DNA of 54,616 nt from Romeriopsis navalis LEGE 11480 (GTDB lineage Bacteria; Cyanobacteriota; Cyanobacteriia; Leptolyngbyales; Leptolyngbyaceae). The stretch spans positions 1-54,616 of the forward strand of contig NZ_JADEXQ010000035.1 of assembly GCF_015207035.1 (NCBI RefSeq), in the 5' to 3' direction. A model generated the notes under the pieces. The model saw only the letters and a program-made list of their open reading frames with translations. It had not been told where the DNA came from and ran no database searches. Made by a program: the position numbers and the translations under genes. This document shows, piece by piece, positions 3,930-8,091 of the stretch (position 1 is its first letter; each line of letters begins with the position of its first letter).

Positions 3930-4544
3930 CTATGCGCTCTGCTGCATGGATGGCGTTGCGATGATTTGGCGAATCTCATCAGCTAAGGATTTATCTAAAT
4001 CAACGCCATCAAGAATCGCTGTCGATAGATCAGTTTTACCGAGGAGGGCCTTATCAAGGCAGGCACCGCGCAAGTCAGCTCGATGTAAAACAGCGCCAGT
4101 TAAATTAGCACGGGTCAGATCAGCACCGGCAAGATTAGCACCGGTCAAGTTGGCAAAGCCTAAATCGGCGTTGGCGAGATCGGCTTGATGCAAATTAGCG
4201 TTGGTTAGATTTGCTAATCGCAGATCAGCGTCTTGCAGAGTTGCTTGGGTTAAGTCGGTTTCAGTTAGTACAGCGCGGATTAAATTTGCTCTACCCAGGT
4301 TGGCCAAATGGAATCTGGCTTGGCTCAGATCGGTCTGCCAAAACATCGCTTGGGATAGGTCAGCTTCGGTAAAATCAGACGATCGTAGATCGCTCCGGGA
4401 AAAGTTGGCGTTTGCCAGATAAGCCTGGGCAAAATTCACATCAATCAAGCAGGCTTCACTGACGAAAATACCGCGCAGGCTCATCTGGCCAAAATCACGC
4501 TTGCCATCCGCGTACTGCTTTAGCAGTTCACTACTGTATGGCAT
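3930..4544 (-). CDS. Pentapeptide repeat protein
   Basis: A 204-residue protein built almost wholly from A(D/N)LxX pentapeptides between about residues 25 and 185, for example ADLSQAMFWQTDLSQARF and ANLTNANLHQADLANADL. Such repeats fold into a right-handed quadrilateral beta-helix. No signal peptide or membrane segment is visible, so it is probably cytoplasmic, with a short non-repeat cap at each end. Pentapeptide proteins are abundant in cyanobacteria and mostly unassigned, although some mimic DNA and protect gyrase. A gyrase/topoisomerase subunit gene lies 2 kb away, but that proximity is not evidence of a link. It is convergent with the M41-like gene and has its own start ATG at 4544. Confidence 0.85.
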   Translation of the reverse strand: MPYSSELLKQYADGKRDFGQMSLRGIFVSEACLIDVNFAQAYLANANFSRSDLRSSDFTEADLSQAMFWQTDLSQARFHLANLGRANLIRAVLTETDLTQATLQDADLRLANLTNANLHQADLANADLGFANLTGANLAGADLTRANLTGAVLHRADLRGACLDKALLGKTDLSTAILDGVDLDKSLADEIRQIIATPSMQQSA

Positions 4545-5667: not shown

Positions 5668-5753
5668 GGTTGTGATCCCCCTGAATCCCCCTTAAAAAGG
5701 GGGACTTTAACGACTTCCCCCCTTTTTAAGGGGGGCTAGGGGGGATCACAACC
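5668..5753. repeat. 86-bp palindromic intergenic repeat (MITE-like)
   Basis: The ends are a perfect 13-bp inverted repeat, ggttgtgatcccc (5668-5680) / ggggatcacaacc (5741-5753). Inside are two GC-clamped palindromes around ttaaaaa / tttttaa flanked by runs of C and G. The whole element folds into one long imperfect hairpin or two side-by-side hairpins. Similar CCCCCTTAAAAAGGGGG repeats are scattered between genes in many cyanobacterial genomes (from memory, not searched). No coding capacity. Confidence 0.75.
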
Positions 5754-5919
5754 CAAGCAAAAAACAATCAATAGAGTGCAGCCAGAACATAGACTACCAG
5801 CTTTCCCATTCCCTCCAGCAGCAACCAGAACACCCAAATCCACCAAACAATCCGCAGGATTCTCCCATCCGCTACAATTCAAACAATCGCGACTGATTAC
5901 CCCCATTCCCTGTATCGCC

Positions 5920-8091
5920 ATGCTGCTCACCCCCCCCACACAGACTGCCTCACCCCAGACAGTCAAAGACTACTCCAACCAAAACCTCCGAGGCCGCAGC
6001 TTCAAAGGTCGAGACCTACGCGGAGTCAACTTCAGCGGAGCCGACATCCGGGGCGCAAACTTCACCGATGCGGACTTACAAGGAGCCAAGTTCACTAGAG
6101 CCATCGCAGGAGTTCAGAAACGATGGCTCATCGGACAAACACTTATCGGTTTCGTCCTATCGCTGCTACTGAATTTCTCATCAATTCTTCTCAATTTTTT
6201 TGCCTTTGTCGTGTTGTTTCAGGGCCGTATTTCTATATTTTCTAGCATAGTAGCTCTACTATTCAACGCTAGCTGGCTTCTGATCCTGGCGAAACAAGGT
6301 TTCACAACTAGAGCATTATCAATAATTCTTATCTGCTTTGCATTCACATTCGCAGTCGCAGGCGCAGTCGCAGGCGCAGTCGCAGCCACAGACGGCGCAA
6401 TAGCATTCACATTCGCAGTCACATTCGCATTCGCATTCGCATTCGCATTCGTATTCGTATTCGCAGTCACGGTTGTAGGCTCAGTAGCAGTAGCAGGCGC
6501 AGTCATAGTTACAGTCGTAGGCGTAGCTACATTTGCAGTCGCATTTGCAGTCGCATTTGCAGTCGCAGTCATAGCCATCGGAACAGAAGCAATCGCGGAC
6601 TCAGGTGCAAACGCAGTTGCAGGCACAGTCGCAGTCGCAGTCGCAGCTTTATTATTAGGATTTTATGCGGCTTGGCGAACAAATAAAGGCGATGACAAGT
6701 TTATGTTGGTTCGTTCTTTTAGTTTAGCGTTTAACTCCATGGGTGGAACACGTTTCAGCGGAGCCAACCTTACTAAGGCTGATTTCACTAACGCTAAACT
6801 CAAGGGCGCAAATTTCGCCGATAGCGGCACCCGCAAAACCACGCTCACCCGCACCTGCTGGAAAGATGCTCAGCAGCTTGAAAAAGCCCGTCCCGGCAAT
6901 AGCATTTTCACCAACCTGCAAGTGCTAAAGCTACTCAAAACGGGTGAAGGAATCAATCAAGACTTCTCCGGCCTTAACCTACGCGGTGCGAACTTAGACG
7001 CTGCCCACCTCAATGGCTCAAACCTCAAAAACGCCGACATCAGCCAAGCCTGCCTTCACAAAGCCGACCTCCAAAACGTCAACCTCACCGAAGCCCAAGC
7101 CGTCGGCACCAACTTCACCAACGCCTATCTCACCGGAGCCTGCCTCGAAGCCTGGAACATCGAAGGCGCAGATCTCTCGGATATCAAGTGTGAATATTAC
7201 TTCCTCCGCGAGAACAAACGCGAACGTCGTCCCCACGATACCGATGCATTCTTTGCTCCCGGAGACTTTAGCAACCTGTACAAAAAAATAATCAACACTG
7301 TCGAAATCCTACTAAAAGATGGCTATCGCAGCCTAGAAGCATTTCAAGCGGCATTTCAAGCTGTCATGGCAGAGAACCCGGACATCACGCCTGACTCCCT
7401 GCAAAAAATAGAACGCGTCGGCCAGAAGGATGCCCGCATTACCCTCACCGTTCCGGAAGAAACCGACAAAGCCCAACTTGAAAAGAAATTCCAGCAAGTC
7501 TATGAAGAAAACCGACAACTCCTTAGCCAAGTTGAGAAATACAAAATACTCAGCGAAGCCGAAACTCGCCACGCCGACAAATTTGAAAGTCTTGCCACGC
7601 TCCTCGCCAAGCGCCCAATAACTATCCAAAACACCCAAACCACAGGAGACAACACCGTGACCAATCAAGACAACCAAGCCATCTCCGCCGGACAAGGCAG
7701 CAACATCAACCTCGGCACCCAAACCGGCAACGTCCTCAACTTCGGCACCATCAGCGGCAACCTCACCAACACCCTCAACCAGCTCCAATCCAGCAACCAA
7801 ACCAACGCCGCCGACCTCACCGACTACCTCACCCAACTCCAGAGCGCGATCACCGCCGACCCCAACCTCCCCGACGCCGACAAAGCCGAAACCCTCCAAA
7901 AAGTCGATGACATCGCCAAAGCCGCCACCCACCCCGAAGATAAACGCCGTCATGGCGCATTAAAAGGCGCAATCGACTTCCTTAAGGGCACGATCAACGC
8001 CGTCCCCAAAGCCGAAAAATTTGCCGCCGCCTGCAAAAAATTGCTGCCCCTGATTACCACGGCACTAGGCGCGATCGGTCTAATGGTTTGA
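5920..8091 (+). CDS. Large membrane pentapeptide-repeat protein with repeat-encoded hydrophobic segment
   Basis: A 723-residue multidomain protein of unknown function. Order: short leader; pentapeptides (about 20-60, e.g. ADIRGANFTDADLQGAKF); hydrophobic helices (about 70-125); a long Ala/Phe/Val segment (about 140-245) encoded by a near-hexanucleotide repeat; a second pentapeptide block (about 270-295 and 350-410); a helical charged region with coiled-coil character (about 515-560); an Asn/Gln/Gly/Thr-rich stretch (about 570-625) such as QTGNVLNFGTISGNLTN; and a helical C-terminus ending in a hydrophobic tail. ATG 5920 is chosen because it begins the homologous-looking part; an upstream GTG at 5776 in the same frame would add 48 residues of low quality. 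The mix of beta-helix, membrane and coiled-coil parts suggests a membrane scaffold or sensor, which is inference only. Confidence 0.8.
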   Translation: MLLTPPTQTASPQTVKDYSNQNLRGRSFKGRDLRGVNFSGADIRGANFTDADLQGAKFTRAIAGVQKRWLIGQTLIGFVLSLLLNFSSILLNFFAFVVLFQGRISIFSSIVALLFNASWLLILAKQGFTTRALSIILICFAFTFAVAGAVAGAVAATDGAIAFTFAVTFAFAFAFAFVFVFAVTVVGSVAVAGAVIVTVVGVATFAVAFAVAFAVAVIAIGTEAIADSGANAVAGTVAVAVAALLLGFYAAWRTNKGDDKFMLVRSFSLAFNSMGGTRFSGANLTKADFTNAKLKGANFADSGTRKTTLTRTCWKDAQQLEKARPGNSIFTNLQVLKLLKTGEGINQDFSGLNLRGANLDAAHLNGSNLKNADISQACLHKADLQNVNLTEAQAVGTNFTNAYLTGACLEAWNIEGADLSDIKCEYYFLRENKRERRPHDTDAFFAPGDFSNLYKKIINTVEILLKDGYRSLEAFQAAFQAVMAENPDITPDSLQKIERVGQKDARITLTVPEETDKAQLEKKFQQVYEENRQLLSQVEKYKILSEAETRHADKFESLATLLAKRPITIQNTQTTGDNTVTNQDNQAISAGQGSNINLGTQTGNVLNFGTISGNLTNTLNQLQSSNQTNAADLTDYLTQLQSAITADPNLPDADKAETLQKVDDIAKAATHPEDKRRHGALKGAIDFLKGTINAVPKAEKFAAACKKLLPLITTALGAIGLMV
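6340..6646 (+). repeat. Degenerate hexanucleotide tandem repeat inside the pentapeptide membrane gene
   Basis: About 300 bases are dominated by a 6-bp unit gca(t/g)tc and variants such as gcagtc, gcattc and gtattc. They encode alternating Ala-Phe and Ala-Val dipeptides. Perfect runs occur, including five consecutive attcgc-type units near 6425-6455. A repeat unit divisible by three keeps the frame, so expansion or contraction would change membrane-segment length without killing the gene. Confidence 0.8.

Follow-up and report, generated by a model that had tools for sequence, protein, structure and literature searches.

How much sequence does a membrane region require if a large part of it can be encoded by one short, repeated DNA unit? 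This question is raised by a gene of Romeriopsis navalis LEGE 11480, in which a near-hexanucleotide repeat lies within a predicted membrane segment of a pentapeptide-repeat protein. The window, that is, the whole stretch of DNA analysed here, comprises 54,616 nucleotides and sits in an assembly of 6.47 Mb.

Layout of the gene

The open reading frame at 5920-8091 encodes, in order, a first pentapeptide block, a membrane cassette, a second pentapeptide block, an alpha/beta domain and a C-terminal helical region. The homologs begin close to the motif DFSxxNLRGRSFKG.

5668-5752, no strand assigned: 85-bp palindromic interspersed repeat, upstream of the open reading frame
5920-8091, plus strand: open reading frame, 723 aa from the ATG at 5920 (771 aa if translation began at an in-frame GTG at 5776)
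5974-6099, plus strand: pentapeptide block 1, aa ~19-60, Pfam PF00805 and PF13576
6109-6702, plus strand: membrane cassette, 198 aa, GVQKRW...KGDDKF
6163-6219, 6235-6291, 6313-6369, 6412-6468, 6523-6579 and 6616-6672, plus strand: six hydrophobic segments in the cassette, from hydropathy
6340-6655, plus strand: degenerate hexanucleotide array GCA-(GT/TT/GG)C, encoding Ala-Val/Phe/Gly
6745-7179, plus strand: pentapeptide block 2, aa ~276-420, Pfam PF13599 and PF00805
7225-7518, plus strand: conserved domain of ~98 aa from the family alignment, candidate TRADD-N, named by published architecture (PMC7159879, PMC8195603)
7519-8088, plus strand: C-terminus with a coiled stretch, a Gly/Asn-rich stretch and a helical region

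The protein contains eight or more A(D/N)LXX pentapeptides in tandem (PF00805, E=6.6e-32, four stretches; PF13599, E=1.1e-19), and matches to PF00805 and PF13599 on both sides of the repeat confirmed its position between two pentapeptide blocks, as the initial annotation had stated. The six 19-residue segments of the cassette have mean Kyte-Doolittle values of 2.15-2.74, which predicts several membrane spans as judged by hydropathy alone. A single-sequence AlphaFold2 model of the protein had a pLDDT of 40.7 and a pTM of 0.22, too low for a confident topology or structure. The domain of ~98 residues follows the family consensus RRPxS..F.PGEF...FRNGIDW..F......IQSIE.KGDG..V.V..P..ADK...F...Y.

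The palindrome at 5668-5752 resembles a small interspersed palindromic element and has 44 matches in the genome at E<=0.001, both orientations counted. A nearby minus-strand gene (3930-4544) encodes a second, soluble pentapeptide-repeat protein of 204 aa, whose closest NCBIfam models are HetL and Alr5209, with scores under their cut-offs.

A hexanucleotide array encodes Ala-X dipeptides

TRF reported a period of 6 at 6350-6570 (37.3 copies, 68% match, score 106), and lag-6 identity was 0.40-0.95 across about 6341 to 6640 and 0.15-0.40 outside. The best 150-nt stretch of the array reached a lag-6 identity of 0.73, which exceeds that of shuffles of its own codons by 11.2 SD; therefore, the periodicity at 6340-6655 is not a product of composition or chance, and the near-hexanucleotide repeat of about 300 bases described in the initial annotation is real.

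In frame, the array reads as Ala-X, where X is Val, Phe or Gly and also Ile or Thr, and it is degenerate, with Thr, Val or Ser in some of the Ala slots. The earlier description as alternating Ala-Phe and Ala-Val was thus right about the alternation with Ala but slightly too simple, as Ala-Gly is common too. Its view of a segment of unusually simple composition is supported, and the segment is hydrophobic. Two polar interruptions, ATDGA and GTEAIADSGAN, split the array and lie near or beside hydropathy minima of relatives with ordinary cassettes. Moreover, GCA accounts for 26 of the 27 Ala codons in the array but for 11 of 60 elsewhere in the gene (Fisher p=1.9e-12).

The array within a family of homologs

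Homologs were found in 37 of 58 related genomes (E<=1e-20) and in 111 of 388 genomes across the class (E<=1e-50), and 136 of them were aligned with the window protein. The common layout consists of a pentapeptide block, a hydrophobic cassette of ~190 aa, a further pentapeptide block, the conserved alpha/beta domain and a variable C-terminal end. Conserved anchors, G-L-Q-x-R-W and G-D-E-K-F, border the cassette across the family. With a lag-6 identity of at least 0.66 as the threshold, a value set by us, 42 of the 137 cassettes carry a clear period-6 array, and the remainder are ordinary hydrophobic sequence. The array occupies the 3' two-thirds of the cassette, leaving two ordinary spans before it and one after it, and the longest uninterrupted one in the family has 58 Ala-X units. 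Several arrays sit on megabase-size contigs (e.g. G333:C1, G083:C1, G164:C1) and are therefore not artefacts of fragmented assemblies.

The window genome also encodes a paralog (L002) whose cassette is ordinary and whose C-terminal end is a CHAT domain; Pfam detected CHAT in 5 of the 34 family members scanned. Interrupted reading frames occur in the homologs L040, L045/L078 and L049; L040 has a stop in its N-terminal part, and its array is down to about 14 residues. A search of the contig collection for close relatives returned two Niastella (Bacteroidota) loci only. In two Niastella genomes (L061, L062), a short protein is related to the N-terminal half, and its cassette is ordinary and 172 aa long.

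The cassette changes in sequence at nearly constant length

Between family members whose pentapeptide flanks are 83-90% identical, the cassettes are often just 24-65% identical. For example, the flanks of L125 (with an array) and L142 (a near twin lacking one) have an identity of 0.88, and their cassettes an identity of 0.34. On a quick tree built from the flanks only, parsimony requires a minimum of 24-26 changes of array state, and it does not distinguish arrays gained many times from old arrays that decayed many times. Within a clade, the arrays tend to have the same hexamer type, which is compatible with old arrays that decay and regrow.

Cassette length, in contrast to sequence, stays nearly constant. 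It is 187.4+-14.4 aa with an array (n=40) and 188.8+-17.2 aa without (n=67), with boundaries that depend on the alignment in its most divergent rows; both medians are 190 aa (Mann-Whitney p=0.47; Levene p=0.96 for the variances). Array and non-array cassettes alike most often have six hydrophobic segments. Exceptions exist, since short outliers of 123, 125, 148 and 155 aa were found, all of which carry a full or partial array. The cassette of L171, for instance, has 123 aa, compared with 189-193 aa in L126 and L125, whose flanks are 82-83% identical to its own. In-frame length variation, which according to the initial annotation a unit length divisible by three allows, is thus possible and has happened, but it is not supported as the main feature of the array.

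Close relatives gave a similar picture. Four near-clonal Leptolyngbya boryana plasmid records hold an identical gene with a degenerate array, and no difference in repeat number, hence no within-species slippage event, was seen among them. In the closest species pair, L122 and L123, the arrays have the same length and differ by one base, which changes Val to Phe, compared with 15 differences in the 1872 other bases, 11 of them at third positions.

Pure arrays are 94% A, V, G and F, and Leu and Ile fall in them from 12% each in ordinary cassettes to about 1%. Lys, Arg, Asp and Glu are absent after residue 75 in 23 of 40 array members and in 0 of 67 non-array members.

Silent sites are frozen and coding sites vary

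Each gene uses its own Ala codon in the array, on average at 90% of the Ala positions inside it and 23% outside (Fisher p<0.001 in every one of the 42 genes). Codon preference is ruled out as the cause, because the array codon differs from the commonest Ala codon of the gene in 34 of these 42. Each X residue likewise tends to one codon per gene; in L155, Phe is TTC, Gly is GGA and Val is GTA. Units that encode the same amino acid match in codon at a frequency of 0.90, compared with 0.36 expected from codon use elsewhere in the gene, and the match exceeds expectation in 39 of 39 genes (p=4e-12). Amino-acid-changing positions are more variable than wobble positions in 32 of 42 arrays, at about 1 bit and 0.5-0.7 bits, respectively. 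We infer that a few founder hexamers were copied clonally, with ongoing homogenisation and with selection that keeps several unit types.

Relation to known systems

Position and architecture make the ~98-aa domain after the second block a candidate TRADD-N domain, a lead for which sequence-profile searches of Pfam and PDB returned no match. According to the parts of PMC7159879 and PMC8195603 available to us, TRADD-N has an RRM-like fold with a conserved Ser between beta2 and beta3, and the cyanobacterial systems, described as putative counter-invader systems, couple this constant domain to pentapeptide repeats, caspases or STAND NTPases. The present family resembles them in being mainly cyanobacterial and in joining an alpha/beta domain to pentapeptide repeats, which all members have, and in some paralogs to CHAT. 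It differs in the hexanucleotide membrane array, which does not appear in those parts of the published account. PADLOC families gave no match for the window protein or for paralog L002.

Among the membrane pentapeptide proteins that have been studied, HglK of Nostoc PCC 7120 is the nearest; it likewise combines membrane spans and pentapeptide repeats in one chain (PMC8145042). Its layout, however, is different: four N-terminal spans are followed by one repeat block, whereas the spans in the window family lie between two blocks and are followed by the conserved alpha/beta domain; a repeat array in HglK is not described in that review. Coding microsatellites resemble the array in having in-frame 6-bp units that probably arise by slippage (PMC3899988; for Leptolyngbya-like genomes, PMC8619395), but here total length is constant, synonymous bases are frozen and amino-acid-changing bases vary. 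One published study, in the part available, reports positive and relaxed selection among the repeats of one protein, apparently not in membrane dipeptide arrays. Searches of an open-access library returned no description of such arrays; one may exist elsewhere.

Proposed explanation and alternatives

We consider it probable that the protein is a membrane-anchored pentapeptide adaptor whose cassette needs hydrophobicity and ~190 residues and little else, and that this cassette was overwritten by hexamer duplication while its length was selected. The protein would probably serve as a signalling or conflict adaptor of a cyanobacterial family, with a cassette of roughly six spans. In-frame copies of a founder hexamer (GCN-GTN, GGN or TTN), made by short duplications, may have replaced the DNA of the last four spans; this would be tolerated because almost any Ala-X dipeptide meets the need for hydrophobicity and length. 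Slippage or unequal recombination would then lead to continuous turnover and homogenisation of the units. Homogenisation would drop synonymous variants, selection on hydrophobicity and packing would keep Val, Gly and Phe, and total length would be kept through selection for the number of spans. These data suggest that hardly any specific sequence is required for a multi-span membrane anchor to work.

The order of units was also considered as a code for the spans. The hydropathy of arrays correlates with that of ordinary cassettes at 0.82 (0 of 300 shuffles), but this correlation is due to the polar interruptions and is gone in pure segments, so the idea was rejected. In pure arrays no span/loop signal was detected in unit order (64 of 300 shuffles reach it); six spans in a pure array are therefore an extrapolation from ordinary members.

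The far faster evolution of the cassette than of its flanks might instead indicate a diversified surface or pore module of an anti-invader effector under positive selection, with the repeat as a contingency locus that generates variants. Such a role would suit the CHAT domain in paralogs, the like arrays in NACHT proteins, a relative on a Nostoc plasmid that adjoins a NACHT gene, and the modules coupled in TRADD-N systems as far as described (PMC7159879, PMC8195603). We regard it as unlikely, since constant length and the collapse to four residue types point to homogenisation, not diversification, the array is common to close species and strains, and PADLOC does not match the window protein.

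It is less likely still that the array marks a relaxed or decaying region, in which slippage runs unchecked and the membrane part is dispensable or the gene is becoming a pseudogene. The reading frame of most array genes is uninterrupted for about 700 codons, their flanks are under purifying selection, as the third-position excess between L122 and L123 indicates, and cassette length and hydrophobicity are constant; the interrupted frames mentioned above and arrays in short-cassette outliers such as L171 and L188 are in line with decay. Finally, the strict alternation of small and large residues with period 2, which continues for as many as 58 units, has no helix-type pattern and would put all Ala on one face, and the adjoining pentapeptide beta-solenoids could suggest a beta-structured or silk-like assembly instead of a bundle of membrane helices, possibly extending the pentapeptide beta-helix, but this is very improbable given that homologs have ordinary helical-type hydrophobic sequence there, with six peaks and equal total length, and that ordinary spans are retained, two before the array and one after.

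If the membrane-anchor explanation is true, the family is a natural experiment on the minimum sequence information for a multi-span membrane domain, with dozens of equal-length variants, some reduced to about four residue types, and with the non-repetitive homologs serving as controls. Repeats whose silent positions are more uniform than their amino-acid-changing ones would also mislead ordinary dN/dS tests. If these proteins form part of cyanobacterial conflict systems, the cassette is perhaps the part of them that changes fastest.

Arrays in other proteins

Runs of six Ala-(Val/Phe) units occur in 36 of 388 genomes. Among the loci inspected, carrier open reading frames of at least 250 aa belong either to the pentapeptide family or to one second group, which consists of two full-length NACHT proteins with a C-terminal array, L259 (2198-5884; Pfam E=5e-15) and L260 (119-4087; 5.5e-14), and a C-terminal fragment, L261 (3669-4532). 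Their arrays read GCT-GTC/TTC/GGC, lie in the C-terminal membrane part and have equally frozen Ala codons. A looser pattern search added a Ser/Thr kinase, L110 (1056-2966 in G042). None of the 8 loci with a Leu-X control pattern lay inside an open reading frame of at least 250 aa, so dipeptide arrays are not general to hydrophobic genes.

It is possible, and we put it forward tentatively, that 'sequence-free' polytopic anchors exist in unrelated cyanobacterial proteins (pentapeptide/CHAT, NACHT, Ser/Thr kinase) and have repeatedly been rewritten to constant-length Ala-X arrays, in which DNA homogenisation would freeze synonymous sites and selection would keep several hydrophobic unit types.

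Arrays of the AWALAV type, with Ala-Val/Trp units, were seen in the same kinase and in a small membrane protein, L089 (1218-1916 in G052). Another one lies in the window's own genome, in an open reading frame cut by a contig end (L083, 1287-1601 of contig C33).
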